NCBI GenBank assembly: GCA_024400635.1
Contig: JAKSMI010000006.1
Location: 1 to 64,000, forward strand
Origin: Bacteroidales bacterium
Lineage (GTDB): Bacteria; Bacteroidota; Bacteroidia; Bacteroidales; WCHB1-69
Direction of reading: 5' to 3'
DNA: 64,000 nt
The translations under genes and the position numbers were made by a program. Numbering within the stretch: position 1 is the stretch's first letter; the number at the start of each line of letters is the position of its first letter. This document shows positions 1,108-63,394 of the stretch, one piece after another. The notes under the pieces are model-generated. The model had not been told where the DNA came from, made no database searches, and saw nothing but the letters and a program-made list of their open reading frames with translations.

Positions 1108-4100
1108 ATTGTCGAATAACGCAACTCGAATTTGTTAATTGTATTAATGCCTTCATACCCTAATCTTTGAAAAAAATTAGAGATACCATCTTCACCATAA
1201 GTTTTTTGACCAAGATATAGACCTTCTCCAAATGTATTAAGTGCCTTCTGATAGAACGTACCATAATGAAAGAAGAATTCTTTTTTTTGGTTTCCGGCTA
1301 ATTGAAATGCGCCATAAGAGGCAAGGGTTCTTGTCTTTGATAATCCGACAAGGCGGCCAAATGCGCCAGCCGCATAGTTCCCAAGATCACGCGGTGAAAC
1401 ATAAACCCCTTCACTAATCATTGATCCAGCATTCATATGAGATTTGACGTCATAAAGGTCTCCGTTGCCAGCATTCATTGCATAAAAAAGCAATGAACCA
1501 AGAGGATTAGAGACGGCATTAGCAAAATTGGATTCGAATGAATTCAACCACAGTTCAGCTTCGTTTGAATTAATATTTATTCTATCTCCTTGTTTAAATG
1601 ATTGTTCACAAAAGGTGAAACCTATAAGGTTGTCATAATTATTTGAAAAATTTTTACCATTATAAAAATCTGTTATTTCAGCTGAATTATGTTTGTAAAT
1701 ACCCGTGTTTGCGTCATTGTAAACAGCTAAAACATTTCCGTCTTTATCTATATGTGTGGAAATTTCTTCCCCATTCGGGTCCACCAACTTCACAGGGTTA
1801 TTGGCGCAATAAACGTATGGGCTTAACGAGGGGTATTTCGCTGCTTGCGGGTCCACGCTTAGCCAAATGCTTAAATCTGAGCTGTAATATCTTGAACCAA
1901 AGTAGCTTAAACCAGTTTCGGCATCCTTCTCTTTGGCGGAAAAGGTGAAACGGGCATTCCAACCAGTACTCCGCTGGTCAACAAAATTCTCGCCCCATGG
2001 GAGATAGTGCAAATGCTGCACGGCCTTACCGTCAGAGAAGGTTATCCAGGAGGAACTGCCCAAGTGGTCGGGATGGTACCAATAGCATTCCTTTTCATCT
2101 TTTCTTATTTTCTTCCATTCGTAAAGGAATTTCAGCGGAGATTCCTGTACTTCGGCTTGCGTTTCAAGACACTCCAATACTTGGTTGAAATGCCAAATTG
2201 AACGTTGGCGGTGTCTGGCAAACATTTCTTGGTTGTCGTTTTTTTCAATTTCTTGCAGTCCCCCACCTCCAATTTTGCTTACAATGCGCTCGTTCTCGGC
2301 ATAATAGTGCTTGGTGTAGCCCTTTCGGTTGGTTACCACGTATGGGGAAGCATAAAGGGTTGGTCTATCCATATAGTGGTAGTATTGCCAGTTACCGTTT
2401 ATGTTCTGGGCGGCCAACTTTCCAGTCAGCTTATATACCCTGTCGCCATTGGCATCGTAAAGATAATAGGAAAGAAACTTGTCATCCTTAACTCCCTGTA
2501 ACCGATTCTGATCATCCCAACAGAAGGAACGGTTCAAGGGCTCTTCGTCTCGGTGATGAAAGACGAGGTTGCCTTTTACGTCCCAATTGAAATTCTGAAT
2601 TGTACCATTGGTTATATGGGTAAGGGTATTAGGCTGGATAGGATTGTCATAGTGGTAGTCATTATGATAATGGACAGTGGACTGGTTACTGGAAAAGGGT
2701 GTTTGCGTGTAGGTGTCCGCATCGAGATATTTTTCCACAATGCGCCCGTTTGGCATATATCGCATTTCCAGATTGTAACCTACGGGATTGTTTCCGTACC
2801 AATTGCCTTTGGCTTGTTCAAGTCTATATAAGTCATCATACGTGTATATGTTTTGGTATTTTCCTCCCAAGCCGTTGGAAAGCATTCCGGCGGTGTTGCC
2901 GATAGAGACGATATTGCTCACGGCATCGTAGGAATAGTCAATGCTCTGCATCGGCTCTCCCGCAGATGTTTGAGAATACAACCATACAAGTCTTCGCAGA
3001 ATATCGTACTTATAGGATGTTCTTGTTCCGTTTCCGTAATAAACTTCATCCTTCTGTTCAAACTCATTGTATAGGATGCTGTCAAGGTACTTGTACGACG
3101 AGCCGTTTTGGAGTCCCGTAATGCTGTTGAGCTTGCCTCCGCGGTCGTAACCATAGCTCACCTTTTCCCCATCGGGATAAATCATATATTGTATGCGGTT
3201 CCAGCTGTCGTATCCAAAATTCATGACGAAAGTATATGGCCAGTTTTCAAATGGCAGTGCAAAAGTACGAATATTTTGCGTAACCTCACCCAATTTGCCG
3301 TAAGAAAACGTTTGCCATCCGGAAGCGTCTTCCTGCAAGACCACCTTGCCCACCGCATTGGTATTGGTATCGGCAGCCGTGCCATACTCGTAGTGTACGT
3401 TGTTGCCTGGGTAATGGGAGCAAAAAATGTCTGTCAGTTGGTTATAGTTATATTGGTAGTCAAGAATTTCACCCATCTCATTTGTATGTTTTGTCAGATT
3501 CCCGGCAGGATCGTATTCATAGCGGTCCCTTCCCGCATCCGGGTGTATGCGAAGAGTCATTCGTCCGAGGGTGTCATACTCATAACGGGTCTCAAACCCG
3601 TCAGGGTCGGTGTTTTTTTTCAGTTGTCCCAGGCAGTCATACTCAAAAAGGGTCGTCGTGTTATGGGGCGCAACCTGTTTGACCTGCTGTCCGAGAGTAC
3701 CCTTCAGTACCTGCACGCTGTTGTTCATTGCATCCGTGGTAATGGTGGAGAAGTATGTTTTTCCTCCGAAGTTGTCAAAACCATAATTCGTCGCGGTTAC
3801 CTCGTGGGTGGGCAATTCAACACGGGTCTGGCGGTCGAGGATGTCGTACTGCGTCAATGTCTTCGTGGAAGAATCATAAAACGCATTATAGCTTGATCTT
3901 AAGGCCGTATCCTCGGTAAAGGGATGGTACTGTTCCACCGTCCTTCCAAAGCAGTCATAAACGACCTTTCCCGACACAATGCTCCTTTCCAGACCGTTAA
4001 TCGCCGCGTCCTTCTTGGACTGCAACAGGCGTCCCCAGCCGTCAGTCATTATCGTGGTGGCAATGTCGTCGGTGGGATGTTGAGGGTCATAATGGTGAGT

Positions 4101-7100
4101 TATGGCGTAACTTTGGGACGTATTTGTTCCAAAAATATTGACTTTGCTGTAATTTTTTGGGAAATATTGCATTTTTATGGTATAGGGGACGTTGTTGTCC
4201 TGCTCGTATGGAGCCGTTATCGTGGAAGTTCTTCCAAGAAAATCATAAACATACAAAATTTCGTTGCCGTTTACGTCAATGGTCTTGGTGGGCTTGCCAA
4301 ACCTGAAATCGTAGCTTGCCGAGGAATGGAAGCCGAGTGACAGGTTGTCAACCCTGACGGGATAGGTATGGACAATGGTGTCGTACCGATATTCATACTC
4401 CAGTCTCTGTCCGTTTTGGTTTTCTGGCAGTAGCACATAGGCCAGGTTTCCATATTGGTCATATTTAAATCTATATTCCGTGTTGTGTGTGTTGTTATTG
4501 TGTGCAAGCAGGTCTAATTTTCCTGTTGAAGTGTATGTTGCCGTACGCTTACGCAACAAGTTTCCGGTCTGATCGGTCACCTCTATATGTATGGGTAGTG
4601 CGACAAGGTTGTGCGGCATACCCTGTGCATAATTTATTTCGGCCTTGAAATACTCGTCGTGACGGGTAGTGTCGCCAAAATGGGTGTATTGCGTGATGTT
4701 GCGTTTGTTGTCGTAAATGTATCCAACTCTTGATGTTATCCGTGGGGTGTTTTGTCCCTCGTAGTAATTGGTCAGTGTTGCCTCGTTGGCCACGTACACG
4801 TCTGCTCTGGCGCAGCTGTCGTCAGAAACAGAAGTTCCTGCAAAATCAAGCAGTGTGGCATCATACAAATGTTCAACGTAGGGTTTCCCCGCGGCGTCAT
4901 ACACACAGTCGCGCGTCTTTCTCCCACGTTTGTTGAAGATGCGGTTCTCGTACTCTTCCACCGTGTAGCGGTACAGGGTGTCGCCGCCATCGGTGTCGTA
5001 TTGCTCGGCCGTAACCTTTCCGTAGCCGTAGTCCATTCGCTCATAGCGGTCATAATGAGGGTTTTCGTATGAGAATTTAGTATGGGTATATTTCCCGGGA
5101 AGTGGAGAATTGGTGTCCGCGGTTACCACACTGGAAAGTGTCCAAGAGCGTTGTGGTTTTTCGAAGCAGGCCTGCGGCATGTCGTAATCCAATTCTATGG
5201 TGCTGCCCGTGAAATTGGTCACTTTTTTCAGCAGGTTGGTCTTACCCGCCGTGCTGTAGCGTATGGTCATGGCATCTTCCGAAGAGGATGTCACGTAATC
5301 AACATAACCGTCGCCGTTGATGTCGGTGAGCTGTGCGACATCCGTGGTAAACGACATGTTTTTGGGAGAGACTTGCACTCCGAAATTAAGTTTGGCTATT
5401 GCGCACACGGTAAATCCCGCAGTGACACCTATGTTTGTGCTTTCATTATACGAATAGCTCTTACTGATTTCCATAGAGTCGATGTAATCCGAATTTGACC
5501 ATTTCCCATTACCGATATTATACATGACACAGAGCTTGTCCTCGTCATAAAAATTCACTTTGTCGGGCAGACCGTCACCGTTAAAGTCCAACAACTGTTT
5601 GGTGGTCTCGTTGGTGGTGAAGGTTTCGCCACGACCGCCTCCGATACTGCATTGTGCTACACTATAGTTCTTGAGTACAGTTTCCCCGACCCCATTTGTA
5701 ATAGTAGCAATTTCGTCTTGGCTAATGCCAAATTGTGCCCCTGAGGAGCTTCCTTGGGCAATACTATTTCCATCCCTAATATATTCAATGTCCCAATAAT
5801 TGTCGTTAACAAATCCGTAGCCTATATTAAGGCACACGGTCTGCTGAGAACTGACGAAATCGGGCAGTCCATCTCCATTGATGTCGAAGAACATATAGTC
5901 CGTTTCGTCGTCACTTTCAACAGTACTGCTACTGTTTGTTCCCCCCGAGGAGACCGACATCTTGTTCATTTTTCCATTATTGCCTGGTTCTCTTGAAGAA
6001 ACGGGATAGCAGCGACCGTATGTATCCCCGCTGGATTTAACTTCGGACGCACTCAAATGGTTGTCCGCAATCATATTTAATTGGGAAAGTTCCCCAATGC
6101 CACCCCACGGCATGGAATATTGCACGCCGCCTGTTCCAATCGGATCAGGGTAGCGGTCACCGTTCATATCCATATAGTCACTTTGAATGCCGTTCGTGCT
6201 TTTAGATCCTGATCTTCCCACGTTGGCGACAATCATACCAACACTGAATGAACCATCCACACAAGTATTGAAACTCCTTTTCCTGATGCTCTGCACGGGA
6301 GCTCCTTCTACAGATATTGGAACGGGATGGTCATAAATGTCAATGGATTCAAGGTCTATGTCGGAACCTTCATACGAAATGTCTCCCGGGACTGAGTCCA
6401 GTGCTGGAAGAAGCAGTGACGGGCTCGTATTGTCCATAATTGTTGCTGAAACTGCGGTGTTGAATCCATGCCCTCGATAAGCCCCGTATTGTCCGTAGGC
6501 AGTCATTTCCGTCCAACGACTTCGTGTTGACAACGGGTTATACACGTTGTCAATGGCAGTTGTCATTGAGGACTGTAGATTGTTGGTGTCAATTTCATCT
6601 TTGATATAAAATACATTGGTATCAATATCATTCGCGTTCTCTGCAAGATAAATGCTTGGCAATGTGAGCTTGGAAACGTCTATACAGGCACTTCTGACAT
6701 CTAACGAGTCGTGGTTGTTGTAGGCGAACTGTCCCCAGCCACGATACAGTTCCCCGAAAAGCTTGTGATAATGCTTCCTCAAATCGGATTCCGTGCCATG
6801 GTTTATGTCCATTTTAACTTGTGGATAATATGCCAGACTGTCCATTTCAAACTTGTCACCCACCTGGTTCATTGGGTAAAACTTCAATATGGGCTTAAAA
6901 TTTATGTTTGACCAAACAGGATTGGCGTTCACATTTTGTTTTACAATATTAATTTCGATCTTGTCAAGTGTGTCAACGGCAAATTCCACAGTGATGGTTG
7001 TATCTGTATAATGCATATTCGTATCAATGAAGAACACCAACTTTGGTGTATTTTCTTTCAGGATTTGTATTTTTGCCTTATTTTTGATATTGGATGCCGT

Positions 7101-20809: not shown

Positions 20810-20934
20810 TTGTCAATCAGTGTATTAGTAGAGCCGATTTGCCACATTAACCCACTATCCGATTACGGGAAACGAAAAAGGCGAAGAAACTAAGAAACTA
20901 AAATCATTTATATTCTCCGCATTTCAAGCGGAAA

Positions 20935-21245
20935 ACCTTTCTTTGCGATACTTTCTTTGGGTTTCAAAGAAAGTATCAGGAAATGGTATTGCCTTTCAGG
21001 CAAGAAGTGTCAACATTGCCTCCCCACCGAGGACTCCGTCCCCGGTTACTATGTTGTGGTGTCTTTCAGACACCGCAGTTTCTGTGTCACACTGCCGACA
21101 ACACCTTCTTCGTCAATGTCCCCGGTTACTATGTTGTCGTGTTTGGTTGTTCTGCCTGAAGGGCAGTATTTGAGTAACCGAGGACAAAGTCCTCGGTAGG
21201 TGCGGTGCTGTTGAAATCTATTGTCTGAAAGACAAATGTTCACCG
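20935..21245. repeat. Interspersed palindromic repeat cluster, copy 1
   Basis: A non-coding stretch of short hairpins shared with 48,540-49,045 and 63,395-63,625. Components are a 13-bp perfect stem GATACTTTCTTTG / CAAAGAAAGTATC (20,947-20,977), a GGTGTCT / AGACACC hairpin, and CCGAGGAC / GTCCTCGG arms with GGTTACT. Predicted peptides in any frame are artefacts of these repeats. The segment 20,815-20,930 before it shows nothing recognisable. Confidence 0.75.
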
Positions 21246-48539: not shown

Positions 48540-49045
48540 TAATTGTTGAATTGTTTAAGGGTTCTGCCTGGAGGGCAGTATTTGAGTAACCGCTTGCACC
48601 TACGAAGGAGGTGCTGCAGGCATTGTGATGGTGAGGCGGCGGTGTCTGAAAGACACCACAATTAGTAACCGGGGACGAAGTCCTCGGAGCAGGATGCTCT
48701 GAGGGAAAACTCTTGCCTGAAAGGCAATACCATTTTTCTGATACTTTCTTTGAGACCCAAAGAAAGTATCGCAAAGAAAGGTTTCCCGCTGAACAAGCCT
48801 TTGCTACAAATCGGGCAGTTGCAGGCTAAACGCAGAAACTCGCAGGCTCCACTCCGTTCCGCCTGCTCAAACAGTCTGCGTTCTTAACGCCTTCACCCGC
48901 CGCGATTTGTCACGCAAAGCGCTTGTAAGGCGGAGGATATAAATGGGATGTTGGAGGTGCTGCAGGCATTGTGATGGTGAGGCGGCGGTGTCTGAAAGAC
49001 ACCACAATTAGTAACCGGGGACGAAGTCCTCGGAGCAGGATGAAC
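48540..49045. repeat. Interspersed palindromic repeat cluster, copy 2, with a 90-bp direct repeat
   Basis: A 90-base block occurs at 48,607-48,696 and again at 48,953-49,042 with no visible difference (GGAGGTGCTGCAGG ... CTCGGAGCAGGATG). It contains the GGTGTCT / AGACACC hairpin and GTAACCGGGGACGAAGTCC. Between the copies lie the GATACTTTCTTTG stem (48,740-48,770) and a stretch shared, inverted, with 63,395-63,480 (CAGGCTCCACTCC, CAAACAGTCTGCGTTC). A short run of GTTGAATTGT-like repeats (48,503-48,560) precedes it. No gene is supported here. Confidence 0.75.
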
Positions 49046-59349: not shown

Positions 59350-59423
59350 GGTCCCATAGCTCAGTTGGTTAGAGCAGCTGACTCATAATCAGCGGGTCCT
59401 TGGTTCGAGCCCGAGTGGGACCA
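59350..59423 (+). tRNA. tRNA with CAU anticodon (Met, or Ile2 after lysidine modification)
   Basis: A 74-base cloverleaf. The acceptor arms GGTCCCA and TGGGACC pair fully with discriminator A. The D-arm is GCTCAGTTGGTTAGAGC, the anticodon stem GCTGA/TCAGC has loop CTCATAA (CAU at 59,384-59,386), and the T-loop is TTCGAGC. CCA is not encoded. An A-U first pair of an initiator is absent, so it is elongator Met or the CAU isoleucine tRNA; the two cannot be separated by eye. The accessory island starts directly downstream, a common site for integration. Confidence 0.9.
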
Positions 59424-59434
59424 CAACGAAAATC

Positions 59435-59506: not shown

Positions 59507-59689
59507 TTAACAATTGTCTATCTCCTTTATCCTTCTTTTGTACTCGTCAATCAGCACCTTGACCTCGAAGTCTGAAATCTTGCACGGAAGGTTCTTTCTC
59601 GCCTCAAGCATCAGCACCCTGCTCTCTCCTATCTTCTTGACAAGGTTTTCCCGATAGTTGAGAAGGTGGTTCTGATTTAATCTCATCAA
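59507..59689 (-). CDS. Small hypothetical protein starting inside a 33-bp repeat
   Basis: A 60-residue frame. Its start codons lie in repeat A, so the true N-terminus was probably replaced when the repeat became joined here. The remaining sequence (LVKKIGESRVLMLEARKNLP...DEYKRRIKEIDNC) is helical and charged and not recognised. It is likely a 3' fragment of a former gene. Confidence 0.35.
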   Translation of the reverse strand: MMRLNQNHLLNYRENLVKKIGESRVLMLEARKNLPCKISDFEVKVLIDEYKRRIKEIDNC

Positions 59690-59706
59690 AATTATTTAAC
59701 ACTTAA
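59674..59706 (+). repeat. 33-bp dif-like repeat, copy A
   Basis: The sequence comprises G, then ATTTAATCTCA, TCAAAA, TTATTTAACAC, then TTAA. The 11+6+11 layout resembles a Xer recombinase (dif) site. It has stop codons in all six frames and is followed by AC rather than the CC of copies B-D. Confidence 0.8.
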
Positions 59707-59822
59707 ACGTCGGTGGTGATGGTGAAGGCCTCGCCGGCCAACACGCGCTCTATGGCGCGAAGTTTACGGTCTGATTGCTCCTTTACCGCCTGAGCTGGGC
59801 TGATTCTGATGTTGGATAACAT
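59703..59822 (-). CDS. 39-residue small ORF ending in repeat A
   Basis: Encodes MLSNIRISPAQAVKEQSDRK... through ERVLAGEAFTITTDV, with its TAA supplied by the edge of repeat A. A 15-base leader sequence (minus strand ACCAAACAGTAACAA, 59,839-59,825) directly precedes the ATG and is duplicated before the next ORF upstream. I recognise no family. Confidence 0.4.
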   Translation of the reverse strand: MLSNIRISPAQAVKEQSDRKLRAIERVLAGEAFTITTDV

Positions 59823-59952
59823 GGTTGTTACTGTTTGGTAATAAAGAAAGCCGACGTAGGGATACCGCGTCAGTAACTACGCCACCAGAAGTTTCCCAAA
59901 GGCGTACCATATCGGCTTTTAAATATCGTTTACTGGATTGATGATTCTTCAT
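59764..59952 (-). CDS. 62-residue hypothetical ORF with duplicated leader
   Basis: The ATG at 59,952 follows a second copy of the 15-base leader (59,970-59,956). A near -7 box lies shortly upstream on the minus strand. It encodes YLKADMVRLWETSGGVVTDAVSLRRLSLLPNSN..., of which the last third overlaps the 39-residue ORF in another frame. The function is unknown, and it could be a leader ORF. Confidence 0.35.
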   Translation of the reverse strand: MKNHQSSKRYLKADMVRLWETSGGVVTDAVSLRRLSLLPNSNNHVIQHQNQPSSGGKGAIRP

Positions 59953-60097
59953 CTTTTGTTACTGTTTGGTGCCGTAAAAATACAAAAAATTTCAATCCAT
60001 ACACAAAAAGCACACAAAAAAGACAAAAAAAAATTATTATAACAAAGAATAATGATAAGTTGCTGATTTACAATCTAGAAAATTTTCAAAAAAAAGC

Positions 60098-60123
60098 AAA
60101 TAGTATTAAAAATAATACTATTT
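60098..60123. promoter_or_regulatory. Palindromic operator of hicAB
   Basis: AAATAGTATTA and TAATACTATTT flank a 4-base A spacer, a perfect 26-base inverted repeat overlapping the -7 box (TATTTTTG, 60,119-60,126). This is ideal for autorepression by the HicB DNA-binding domain. Confidence 0.65.
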
Positions 60124-60126
60124 TTG
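60119..60126 (+). promoter_or_regulatory. -7 box (TATTTTTG) of hicAB
   Basis: TAnnTTTG match 28 bases before the hicA ATG; it is partly inside the palindrome. Confidence 0.6.
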
Positions 60127-60153
60127 CATAATCAAATTCTGAAAGAAAAAAAT

Positions 60154-60348
60154 ATGAAGACAATAAAAGTGCGGGATTTAATCAGAATGTTGAGGAGGGA
60201 CGGATGGGAACTTGTAAAAATCAAAGGCGACCACCGACAGTTCAAGCACCCCACCAAGAAAGGGAAAGTGACGGTAAACAAGAAATTGTCGGACGATTTG
60301 GACGGAGACCTTTTAGACAACATTTTGAAACAAGCGGGACTGAAATAA
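60154..60348 (+). CDS. hicA: HicA mRNA interferase toxin
   Basis: A 64-residue dsRBD-like toxin. MKTIKVRDLIRMLRRDGWELVKIKGDHRQFKHPTKKGKVTV holds the conserved GDHRQFKHP with the catalytic His, and the C-terminus is DLDGDLLDNILKQAGL. HicA cleaves mRNA when HicB is lost. The ATG at 60,154 matches family N-termini; an in-frame upstream start lies in the promoter. It is 22 bases ahead of hicB, sharing one transcript. Confidence 0.9.
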   Translation: MKTIKVRDLIRMLRRDGWELVKIKGDHRQFKHPTKKGKVTVNKKLSDDLDGDLLDNILKQAGLK

Positions 60349-60370
60349 GCCCCATAAAAAAAACAATAAC

Positions 60371-60907
60371 ATGGAACAGATAAAAGTAACAGTGGATTGG
60401 TGTGGCAAAAACTACGCATCATACATCAGCGACCCACGCATCAATGGTGTAGTCGTTTCAACAGGCAAAACATACGGAGATCTGAAGAGGGAGACCGAAG
60501 AGGAATTACAGTTCCATCTGGAGGGCTGTATCGCCGACGGCGACTCTATTCCAGAAAGCATCAAGAATGGCGACTATGAACTGGTGTATGAAAAAAGGGT
60601 TAGCGCAATCTTGCACGAGGCACAGCAATACACAACACTGGCTGCGTTAAGCCGCGCAACCGGTATCCGTCATGCACAGTTATCACATTACGCCAATGCC
60701 GTGTCCAAACCGCGCCAGGAACAGCGCGAACGTATAATCAATGGATTGCATATTATCGGAAAGGAATTGCAGGAGTTTGGCACAGTTGCAAGAGCTTCCG
60801 AAAAATACGATCAAGGTTATAGCCCCGAGATGGTATCAAAGGCTAAACGAGGAATGGAAGAACACAAGAAAGGCAGGTGCGGATTTAATCTCATCAAAAT
60901 TATTTAA
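60371..60907 (+). CDS. hicB: HicB antitoxin with helix-turn-helix
   Basis: A 178-residue protein. The N-terminal RNase-H-like HicB fold (VDWCGKNYASYISDPRINGVVVSTGKTYGDLKRETEEELQFHLEG) binds HicA. A C-terminal Xre-type HTH (YTTLAALSRATGIRHAQLSHYANAVSKPRQEQRERIINGLHIIGKEL) should bind the palindrome at 60,098. The last residues, FNLIKII and the stop, are encoded by 33-bp repeat B. The original C-terminus may have been replaced, though the core domains are intact. Confidence 0.88.
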   Translation: MEQIKVTVDWCGKNYASYISDPRINGVVVSTGKTYGDLKRETEEELQFHLEGCIADGDSIPESIKNGDYELVYEKRVSAILHEAQQYTTLAALSRATGIRHAQLSHYANAVSKPRQEQRERIINGLHIIGKELQEFGTVARASEKYDQGYSPEMVSKAKRGMEEHKKGRCGFNLIKII

Positions 60908-60914
60908 CACTTAA
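60882..60914 (+). repeat. 33-bp dif-like repeat, copy B
   Basis: Identical to copy A over 33 bases, followed by CC. It ends hicB on the plus strand and the SPFH fragment on the minus strand. Confidence 0.85.
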
Positions 60915-61252
60915 CCATGTTTTTGATGAGGTTGCTCACATTGGCCTGTACCAAGTCGTAGTTGATGGTGTAATCCACTTCGGAAGTTTGAACATCGCGG
61001 GTGTAAGAGCTTTCGTGGCCGTCAAATTTCTTTTGCTGGATGTTCACCTTGTTAATGGTCTGAATAAAAGGTATTTTCACATGTAATCCGTCTGTGACCG
61101 GAGTCTCTGATATCTTTCCGAAAGTGCTCAAGACGCCACGTTCAGTGGATTTGATGACATAGAAGGAGGATAAAATCACCATCAGTGCAAAAAAAGCCGA
61201 CAACAGACCAGATGAAGATTTTGCGCATGTTTGTTTTTCTTTGATAATCCAT
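60904..61252 (-). pseudogene. SPFH/band-7 (HflC/prohibitin-like) gene, truncated and frameshifted
   Basis: Only the first ~110 residues remain. The N-terminal membrane anchor MDYQRKTNMRKIFIWSVVGF is followed by FALMVILSSFYVIKSTERGVLSTFGKISETPVTDGLHVKIPF and FDGHESSYTRDVQTSEVDYTINYDL. The gene is cut at repeat B, giving an artificial end NMVKC. A run of seven T (minus strand, near 61,188-61,194) shifts the frame between the anchor and the SPFH domain; six T would restore it. A -7 box TATTTTTG lies upstream on the minus strand. A full-length relative would be about 270-330 residues, so two independent lesions mark it as dead. Confidence 0.75.
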
Positions 61253-61398
61253 GATGTTTTTATTTTTTTGTTATTGATTCTGATGAAATTTTTTCAAACT
61301 TCAAAAATACAAAAAAAAAATCATATTTGTTGTAACGTTTTTGATGTTTAAAGCGTCACATAAAATATACATATTATAAAAAACGAAAACACGGAAAT

Positions 61399-62292
61399 AT
61401 GAAAAAGTTTGTTTTTTTAGGCTTGTCATTGCTCATCTCTTTGGCGTTGCTGACGGTTTCTTGCCACAAGGAGAATTTGACCAATAACCAAAATAATACT
61501 GACACTGAAGTGCCGGGTGGCGGTGAGGATCCTGGAGATGAACCTGGTGGTGGCGAAGGTGGCGAAGGAGAAGATCCCGGTGACGGAGAAGAGGAAACGG
61601 GAGATCATGTCATTCCCAACGGTGTGACGGATGCTGATGGGAATCAATATAATACGGTAGTGTTGGGCAATCAGGAATGGATGGCCCAGAGTCTCCGTGT
61701 CACTCATTATGCCGATGGTACAGCAATTCCGATGGGAACGGACGGTCAGTGGAGCGACACAGATCCCTATCGTTATGCTCCTGCAGGGGATGAAACTAAA
61801 GTTGAACTATGGGGTTATTTGTACAACTGGTCGGCGGTAATGCATGGCTCTGGTTCCACCACGGCCAATCCGTCAGGTGTGCAGGGTATTTGTCCTACGG
61901 GATGGCATGTGCCCAGCAAGGCGGAGTGGGAACAGCTGTTCAGTTATGTGGGAAGCCAAAGTCAGTATGTATGCGATGACAATCCTGCGCATATTGTTAA
62001 ATCGTTGTGTGTTAACAAAGACTGGGAAAGTGCTGGCACCGGCTATGAATGTTGCCCGGGTTGGGAATCATGGAGCAATAATGCCACGGGCTTCTCTGCT
62101 TATCCCTGTGGAACATACAATGGTAATTATATGGACCAGAACCTGGGTGCGCACTTTTGGAGTACCACGATGATCAATGTAAACTATAAGTGGATTGCCG
62201 CCCCCCGTTTCTATTGTTTTTCTCCTGTTTCGGACTTGGCCGCTGGTGGTCAGGTAGGGACCGCTATCTCCCTCCGCTGCGTCAAAGACTGA
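61399..62292 (+). CDS. FISUMP-domain lipoprotein
   Basis: A 297-residue protein with a lipoprotein signal (LLISLALLTVSC, Cys22 acylated). A Gly/Glu/Asp-rich linker (about residues 40-70) is typical of tethers that lift a domain off the membrane. The FISUMP domain follows: VTDADGNQYNTVVLGNQEWMAQSLRVTHY, LWGYLYNWSAVMHG, GICPTGWHVPSKAEWEQLF, NNATGFSAYPCGTYNG, GAHFWSTT and ISLRCVKD. It is intact, while the genes either side between the 33-bp repeats are broken, and it ends at a good terminator. Confidence 0.85.
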   Translation: MKKFVFLGLSLLISLALLTVSCHKENLTNNQNNTDTEVPGGGEDPGDEPGGGEGGEGEDPGDGEEETGDHVIPNGVTDADGNQYNTVVLGNQEWMAQSLRVTHYADGTAIPMGTDGQWSDTDPYRYAPAGDETKVELWGYLYNWSAVMHGSGSTTANPSGVQGICPTGWHVPSKAEWEQLFSYVGSQSQYVCDDNPAHIVKSLCVNKDWESAGTGYECCPGWESWSNNATGFSAYPCGTYNGNYMDQNLGAHFWSTTMINVNYKWIAAPRFYCFSPVSDLAAGGQVGTAISLRCVKD

Positions 62293-62362
62293 TGCAGTTG
62301 ACAGTTGACAATGAACAATTGATGATTAATAGTTGGAATTGGTGGGGTTGTGTGTCAATAAT

Positions 62363-62398
62363 AGGCACTGGTGAATTGATTTGCCAGTGCCTGTTTTT
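62363..62398 (+). terminator. Rho-independent terminator
   Basis: AGGCACTGG (62,363-62,371) pairs with CCAGTGCCT (62,384-62,392), followed by GTTTTTT. It lies 70 bases after the FISUMP lipoprotein stop. Confidence 0.85.
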
Positions 62399-62399
62399 T

Positions 62400-63003
62400 G
62401 TCAGGCTTTTCATTTGGTGATGTGGCAAGCACCGTCTCTACATTACGATATCTGTCGCGAATTGCTGGATTGTGAATTTCGCGGCGGCAACTGGTGTGCA
62501 TCGGTGCAAATATTTTACGCGCCGCGACCATACATACAATCCGTATTCCTATCCTATGCGGCGGTTGCGGTTCCACCGCAAATTTTTTGTTTTGCCATTC
62601 ATCATGTCGTCATTCATCCGTACGAGGTTGTGGTTTCGCTGCATTGGCCGCATAGGGAATTTTATTAATCCCGCACAAGCGACGTAGTCGTGTAGTGTGG
62701 TGAGAAAGCGACAGATCCGCATAGAATGGAGACGTCAGATAGAGCACGTCTCATGCCTCCGGCATGAACATAAAAATGTTGTTTCAGTGGTAATTGTTAA
62801 CTTTTATAATCCCCAAAACAAATTGTGCAACATTTTCAAATCAAATTGTACACAATTTCAATGGTCTTCAACCAGCATTTAATTACCACCTCCCCCAGCA
62901 AGTGTCAGAAGACCACTGCAACACTTCCACTTGAGTATTTGTTGATGTTGTGACGTGTGTGTGAAAGAACAGCAATGTGAATAACAGGAGCAGAACACCT
63001 GCT
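62400..63003. other. Gene-free stretch inside the accessory island
   Basis: About 600 bases with no frame I can support. They include GC-rich scrambled sequence (62,430-62,760), a small ATGCCTCCGGCAT hairpin near 62,752, and an AT-rich part with CAAATTGTGCA / CAAATTGTACA near-repeats (62,815-62,855). It may be remains of decayed genes. Confidence 0.5.
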
Positions 63004-63036
63004 GATTTAATCTCATCAAAATTATTTAACACTTAA
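63004..63036 (+). repeat. 33-bp dif-like repeat, copy C
   Basis: Same 33 bases, followed by CC. It cuts the 3' end of the PASTA fragment on the minus strand. Confidence 0.85.
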
Positions 63037-63385
63037 CCGAAACGTCACGAAGTTCAGGCATGATGACTTTGGGCGGTTCGGAAGTAGCCACTGTCAAATA
63101 AACCTTGCGTCCTTTTTTCACTTTTTCTCCCGCCTCCGGATTCTGTTTCAAGATTGTACCAGCTGCAACCGTCTTGTCATAAACTTCATCCGTTACCACA
63201 ATGATGTAATCAGATGGCAAAAGTGTATCTATCAACGCATTACAATTCTGTCCAACAAAATCGGGCATATCAACTTCGCGACCATGGCGAGTATATGACC
63301 TAAGCAAAATCATTGTCACCAACATCAAAACGAAGGTAATACCAATGGCAAGCAATGATTTAATCTCATCAAAATTATTTAACAC
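63026..63385 (-). pseudogene. PASTA-domain protein fragment bounded by two 33-bp repeats
   Basis: The frame begins (MLNNFDEIKS) in repeat D and ends (VSVKC) in repeat C. Between them are a transmembrane helix (LLAIGITFVLMLVTMILL) and one PASTA-type repeat (VDMPDFVGQNCNALIDTLLPSDYIIVV...GTILKQNPEAGEKVKKGRKVYLTV), then PPKVIMPELRDVS. Intact Bacteroidota relatives as I know them carry two or more PASTA repeats after one TM helix. This is therefore an internal piece missing both its proper start and its later repeats. Confidence 0.7.
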
Positions 63386-63389
63386 TTAA
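63357..63389 (+). repeat. 33-bp dif-like repeat, copy D
   Basis: Same 33 bases, followed by CC. It borders the interspersed palindrome cluster at 63,395. Confidence 0.85.
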
Positions 63390-63394
63390 CCTTA

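Follow-up and report, generated by a model that had tools for sequence, protein, structure and literature searches.

Spacer acquisition by CRISPR (clustered regularly interspaced short palindromic repeats) systems is taken to be limited to about 30 bp by the geometry of Cas1-Cas2 and, in type II systems, by trimming through Cas9. Insertion of long DNA by Cas1 is known from casposons (solo Cas1), which are elements with ends and a polymerase of their own. In Streptococcus pyogenes, a supercomplex with Cas9 gives a trimmed length of about 30 bp, while Cas1-Cas2 alone integrated substrates of unprocessed length; those given in the consulted parts of that report are far shorter than the inserts considered here (PMC8034620). 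The SiL-E1 pseudo-spacer of Sulfolobus islandicus LAL14/1 consists of about 2 kb of plasmid-like DNA lying flush between identical CRISPR repeats, and its authors, as far as the consulted text goes, knew of no earlier case (PMC3718332). Repeat-bounded accessory modules, often with toxin-antitoxin (TA) genes, are described in the available excerpts on Acinetobacter pdif/dif modules (PMC13141974). Here we describe four direct repeats located between positions 59674 and 63391 of a 64,000-nt stretch of the Bacteroidales contig JAKSMI010000006.1 (this whole stretch is referred to as the window). The four copies are probably CRISPR-type repeats whose inserts were captured by a type II-derived Cas1-Cas2 without Cas9 beside it. 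The locus is most likely an orphaned part of an array that derives from CRISPR, has inserts of gene size and stems from a Cas9-less type II Cas1-Cas2 lineage.

An earlier note on this stretch had reported the 33-base sequence GATTTAATCTCATCAAAATTATTTAACACTTAA at positions 59674, 60882, 63004 and 63357, and all four copies were found there on the plus strand. Copies B, C and D are followed by CC, as had also been stated, while copy A has AC next. The full repeat unit is 35 nt long and differs in one base between A and B-D: read on the minus strand, A has the form GTTTAAG...AAATC and B, C and D have the form GGTTAAG...AAATC. Repeat A (59674..59708), which reads GTTTAAGTGTTAAATAATTTTGATGAGATTAAATC on the minus strand, is the leader-distal copy. 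It is followed by repeats B (60882..60916), C (63004..63038) and D (63357..63391), the last of which marks the side where a leader would be expected; past it, no cas gene was seen in the window. The genome-wide copy count that the note had proposed gave four matches to a 32-base pattern of the repeat (up to three mismatches) in the 2.43-Mb assembly and none to the reversed control. For the 27-base core of the repeat, 100 shuffles of the window gave an expectation of zero matches. The inserts between the repeats are 1173 nt (A-B), 2087 nt (B-C) and 318 nt (C-D) long.

Among nine genomes of the genus examined, the repeat is present in one other, G005, and the window's genome and G005 are the two carriers among 104 genomes of the family. 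G005 has seven copies (R1 to R7), all on one strand. A cas2 remnant, which overlaps the end of cas1 (L019:6991-7755), lies about 50 nt ahead of the array, and cas1 is preceded by a recQ-like gene. The form GTTTAAGTG...GATTAAAAC and the position behind cas1 make the repeat CRISPR-type. The first spacer of G005 is 30 nt long; the five spacers that follow measure 984, 190, 2076, 435 and 1175 nt. Whether the segments between copies vary had been raised in the earlier note: the leader-distal insert A-B (59709..60881) is common to the window's genome and G005, with 99.5% identity and identical ends, and the newer inserts differ between the two species, showing no mutual match. As the EF-Ts proteins of the two genomes are only 79% identical, the near-identity of insert A-B points to a movement of the array between species, judged from these sequence comparisons. 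Repeats R1 to R5 read GTTTAAG..AAAAC, and R6 and R7 are identical to repeat A. Copies B-D in the window and R1-R5 in G005 thus bear one private base change each, and A, R6 and R7 have the common form; private variants among the newer repeats together with a shared distal form are expected if the leader-end repeat is the one that is copied.

The sequences abutting the repeats indicate how the inserts were added. Insert C-D (63038..63355, minus strand) is an exact copy, in 318 of 318 nt, of an inner part of a PASTA-domain gene located on another contig of the same genome (G000:C12:204203-204520). Its first base is common with repeat C, and base 63356 belongs to neither insert nor repeat. The PASTA source locus has no repeat at either end. 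In insert B-C (60917..63003), the 1372 nt on the B side (60917-62288) match DNA of congener G001 at 98% identity, starting flush at repeat B inside a Band_7/SPFH gene; the 5' piece of this gene in the window (60904..61203, minus strand) takes its stop codon from repeat B, and the gene is whole in G001. The remainder of the insert was traced only in part. A small open reading frame (ORF) truncated at repeat A continues further in congener G002. The two sources traced, one at both ends and one at one end with the rest of the inserts untraced, lack the repeat and yielded no PAM (protospacer-adjacent motif). Because the source of C-D is repeat-free, B-C starts flush in a gene that is whole in G001 and the small ORF at A continues in G002, the repeat must have been added along with the insert and, where the source is known, was not brought by it. 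Addition of a repeat together with an insert would resemble spacer acquisition. A scan for degenerate repeats within 15 giant inserts found none, the best matches having 14-18 mismatches of 35, the same as in shuffles. No empty site was readable: 3-16 kb downstream of tsf in eight congeners held no further flank in common with the window locus.

The top two Cas1 relatives among 393 genomes sampled from the order, 55% identical, were found in G120 and G105, members of two other families. Both genomes have whole cas1 and cas2 genes beside arrays with giant inserts, which measure 1874, 454, 452, 412, 790, 1159 and 2350 nt in G120 and 409, 232 and 342 nt in G105. The repeats of G120 and G105 differ within one Cas1 clade, and degenerate repeats lie far from cas in both (two and four mismatches in G120, six in G105). 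Cas genes were thus found near the arrays of G005, G120 and G105, and none of this clade in the window's genome. Near-identical direct repeats with unique inserts, as in CRISPR arrays, are seen throughout (four 35-mers in the window, seven copies in G005, six perfect ones in G120, three perfect ones in G105). The polarity of such arrays is seen too, with a shared distal end and a different leader end in the window's genome and G005, and with degenerate distal repeats in G120 and G105. Regular spacing by spacers of about 30 nt is lacking (0/3 gaps in the window, 1/16 in the three arrays of G005, G120 and G105), and for this reason we call the array a variant that works like CRISPR acquisition.

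A total of 28 cas1 loci were read, of which those of G120, G105 and G005 have no Cas9 match; 25 have one, and 21 of these 25 have an array (none was found at L119, L123, L124 and L139). In the three Cas9-less arrays, 15 of 16 gaps exceed 85 nt, compared with 6 of 455 in 20 Cas9-linked arrays, L114 with its variable repeats being left out of the count (Fisher p ~1e-22, though gaps of one array are not independent). The six long gaps are those of L133 (1692), L134 (541, at the distal end), L135 (100 and 161) and L138 (1204 and 1346). In L133 of G315, a 496-codon ORF that is transposase-like by eye lies within a regular CRISPR array (L133:5176-6868). Searches by tblastn with eight Cas9 proteins revealed no cas9 in the 26-37 kb per locus covered by L019, L063, L112, L141, L113 and L142 (best E 0.36), and the control loci L120 and L140 were positive; the cas9 gene of a type II system is accordingly missing from the DNA fetched around the three loci. 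Four of six Cas1-bearing viral contigs have arrays, all at 76-78-nt spacing. No further clade member was found in 20 family members of G120 and eight of G105; G496 holds a Cas9-linked relative.

The Cas1 proteins of the three loci belong to type II, scoring 259.4, 284.5 and 276.6 bits against TIGR03639 (cut-off 120). A quick tree of 139 Cas1 rows is divided by one branch (SH-aLRT, a Shimodaira-Hasegawa-like approximate likelihood ratio test, 99): the three giant-insert loci fall together with 110 of the 111 database rows, and the 25 Cas9-linked loci with the remaining one; the database rows were chosen as relatives of the G005 Cas1, with their arrays unseen, and comprise 120 listed of 1658 Cas1 relatives minus nine outside 270-320 aa. 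Residues E148, H205 and E220 are invariant in 23 rows and coincide with what we take to be the Cas1 metal site. The closest solved Cas1 relative is chain 4zkj_A. Cas2 of G105 scores 24.4 with Pfam (cut-off 23.8) and 24.0 with TIGR01573 (cut-off 24.5), and that of G120 is under both cut-offs. The predicted fold of the G105 protein (mean predicted local distance difference test score, pLDDT, 77.6) has Cas2 chains as its best matches, with 6jhz (Cas2) at the top (E 1.5e-4). By profile, and in G105 by predicted fold, the second gene of G105 and G120 can be assigned to Cas2, the profile match being weak. The first-strand Asp of Cas2 (VFFDLP) is present in 5/5 Cas9-linked rows and in 0/12 clade rows; S-F-T-R-Y is invariant at this first-strand position in 34 database rows selected for their relatedness to Cas2 of G105.

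The three loci thus resemble a type II adaptation module in their Cas1 (259-285 bits), in 35-nt repeats with mostly GTTT/AAAC ends and in signs of leader-end growth with repeat duplication. They are unlike it in the lack of Cas9 in the DNA fetched, in inserts of mostly 0.2-2.4 kb, in a clade Cas2 without the first-strand Asp and in a clade Cas1 that is set apart in the tree. Unlike in casposons, the array next to cas1-cas2 contains pieces of other genes. To our knowledge, the Acinetobacter pdif modules have neither cas1 nor repeat duplication. As far as described in the excerpts consulted, they also differ in being bounded by Xer sites, whose recombination yields inversions and deletions (PMC13141974). 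SiL-E1, according to the sections of that report available, is one odd spacer in an archaeal array, (PMC3718332); here giants make up nearly all inserts of an array, in a Bacteroidales Cas1 clade.

In the explanation we favour, fragments of cell and phage DNA would be inserted by the integrase at the leader-end repeat, which would be duplicated in the process, as in spacer acquisition. With no Cas9 trimming of the type II kind and an altered Cas2, the stored fragments would vary widely in length. A Cas9-less lineage could indeed store untrimmed DNA, because Cas1-Cas2 alone took unprocessed lengths in the S. pyogenes experiments in the portion of that work consulted (PMC8034620). The array in the window would be orphaned, its leader and cas genes either lost or acting from elsewhere. 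The cell might benefit by carrying TA genes, or might gain nothing at all. A broader proposal, to which we give somewhat less than an even chance, is that an effector-less CRISPR adaptation module has turned into a gene-capture machine: a Bacteroidales Cas1-Cas2 lineage would store fragments of up to 2.4 kb (TA genes, phage genes) in a polarised array growing by repeat duplication, as a CRISPR-derived counterpart of the integron.

Several observations weigh against capture by a Cas9-less Cas1-Cas2. In G005, cas1 is missing its 3' end (254 aa vs 286 in relatives), the remnant of cas2 has no 5' end and scores under both curated cut-offs, and the newest spacer is of normal length (30 nt). In addition, G005 is a metagenome assembly, and all loci were judged from assembled sequence. 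The only match to the clade cas1 in the window's genome is an ordinary type II-C cas1. The cas-linked loci number only three, G105 and G120 being the sole two by score in the order genomes sampled. Two of the 26 gaps at the Cas9-linked locus L138 (G448) hold giant spacers that lie flush, 1156 and 1298 nt long, so absence of Cas9 is not the whole cause of giant spacers; together with SiL-E1, L138 also means that isolated giant spacers occur outside the lineage. In the parts of two further reports consulted, integration at the second site in vitro was inhibited for longer pre-spacers (PMC8390005), and Cas2 D7N lowers full-site integration (PMC13034035). As neither result predicts longer inserts, a change in Cas1-Cas2 beyond lost trimming would have to be assumed.

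Giant inserts could instead derive from ordinary 30-nt spacers that were later joined to their source DNA by recombination in the cell or by chimeric assembly, in the order spacer-source-spacer, a course of events that we consider unlikely but worth weighing. The 30-nt spacer of G005, the metagenomic nature of that assembly and the two giants in the otherwise normal array of L138 would fit it, and homologous recombination is listed as an option for the 2-kb pseudo-spacer in the consulted text of the S. islandicus authors (PMC3718332). However, joining of this kind requires two spacers of the same source in matching order at almost every gap (15/16 vs 6/455), insert A-B has identical ends in two species at 99.5% identity, and the trait tracks one Cas1 clade, as far as three loci show. 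An assembly artefact, offered as an alternative in the earlier note, is weakened by two further unrelated loci of the same pattern (G120, G105) while staying conceivable. Decay of a CRISPR locus, with unrelated DNA pasted by other means between the repeats of a dead array, is in our view improbable. It would agree with the window's genome having no clade cas1 and with the truncated cas1 and cas2 of G005, but G120 and G105 have whole cas1-cas2 genes with six and three perfect repeats, and the traced inserts sit flush between whole repeats, not within them.

The earlier note had likened the repeats to the Xer/dif modules of Acinetobacter plasmids, whose movement would depend on XerC/XerD. Such modules would fit repeats that share one orientation and enclose accessory genes, a TA-type gene among them; a TA dif module is carried by most r3-T5 plasmids according to the excerpts available (PMC13141974). 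The arms also show a weak resemblance to dif of Escherichia coli, the one dif site compared, with 13 of 22 bases matching. Of the 127,946 positions scored in the window, 119 reach this value, those of the four repeats included, and the best value is 15. Moreover, cas1 adjoins the repeat in G005, the PASTA source carries no site at either end, although the source of a module should have one, and the history of inserts and repeats is polarised, as in leader-end acquisition. Xer/dif identity was therefore rejected on context, source and polarity, a dif likeness of this degree being common within the window, and we rate it as very improbable. The ends of a one-ended transposon dragging neighbouring DNA (IS91/ISCR-like), which the note had named as an alternative, would explain the fixed junction on cut genes. 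Every insert, however, is flanked by repeats, the repeats of G120 and G105 differ within the same Cas1 clade, a 30-nt unit exists, and the family matches obtained for the scanned insert proteins included no transposase, which makes this the least probable origin of all. CRISPR-type repeats with inserts captured by Cas1-Cas2 remain our preferred reading.

Over all arrays, the inserts hold a hicA-like gene and genes for DUF2442, an AAA/DUF4143 ATPase, a PEGA protein and a lipoprotein, as well as phage-type gene pieces (baseplate hub, DUF6046 and, in G120, an ATPase gene that extends into the leader-proximal repeat). With L138 set aside, 17 inserts were scanned, and five of them have one frame open over their whole length; gene fragments should look like this, but a short insert can also be open by chance. 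This content looks like unselected capture and not like tidy gene cassettes. Phage records gave no match to the insert DNA of L112:1780-9570 or L019:8090-13160, the plasmid search of inserts gave only one 171-nt match at 69%, to L112, and three insert proteins and the NinG piece described below had no relative in the viral contigs searched. One insert of G120 begins with 63 nt (L112:4231-4293) that are 98% identical to the final part of an antitoxin-like ORF located in a different insert (6668-7063), in opposite orientation.

In the window, the repeats share one orientation and bound an accessory array that includes a TA-type gene and truncated genes, as the earlier note had claimed. The TA pair stood in part: in insert A-B, which also holds the small ORF cut at A, the hicA-like toxin gene (60154..60348, plus strand) matches Pfam HicA_toxin, and the ORF placed as its hicB-like partner, running into repeat B (60371..60907, plus strand), has no Pfam or NCBIfam match. 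The lipoprotein gene corresponds to a lipoprotein-like ORF with a Fib_succ_major domain (61399..62292, plus strand). Genes do end exactly at the repeats, i.e. the SPFH gene at B, the PASTA piece C-D, the small ORF at A and, left of A, the C-terminal piece of a phage NinG-like gene (59510..59689, minus strand), which is cut flush and whose frame begins within the repeat. Right of D, a dispersed multi-copy element of the window's genome (63392..63619, plus strand) is cut flush; three of four other copies inspected extend about 70 bases more, the fourth being partial. This element measures about 230 bases or longer, has further window copies at 48657-48887 and 20927-21058 and at least 26 matches elsewhere in the window's genome (78-97% identity, several partial), and more occur in G005. 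A tRNA-Met gene (59350..59424, plus strand) is a neighbour only.

The window's genome also has an ordinary type II-C locus (L064:5513-12720, G000:C1) with cas9, cas1, cas2 and 47-nt repeats at a 76-77-nt period, and the last repeat of this array is interrupted by an insert of about 62 bp. The giant spacers of L138 are at 469-1673 and 2764-4110; the first is an open frame throughout, and neither had a Pfam or PHROG match. A Cas1 relative that is 98% identical, P0002, is broken near residue 196 on another contig, and the G005 gene near residue 240 (L019:6991-7975); this cas1 gene may be lost repeatedly.

Among the open-access literature matches listed, with few preprints and subscription papers covered, there was no description of a Cas1 lineage with gene-sized spacers. 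If the inserts were captured by a Cas9-less Cas1-Cas2, the array would be a DNA-capturing offshoot of CRISPR. A natural lineage storing kilobases would show that the limit of about 30 bp can be lost, and the question of what acts as the ruler would become directly testable in an E. coli assay. The integrase would be one able to insert DNA of gene size at a fixed site, and Bacteroidales would have an additional route of gene capture, now annotated as plain type II cas1.

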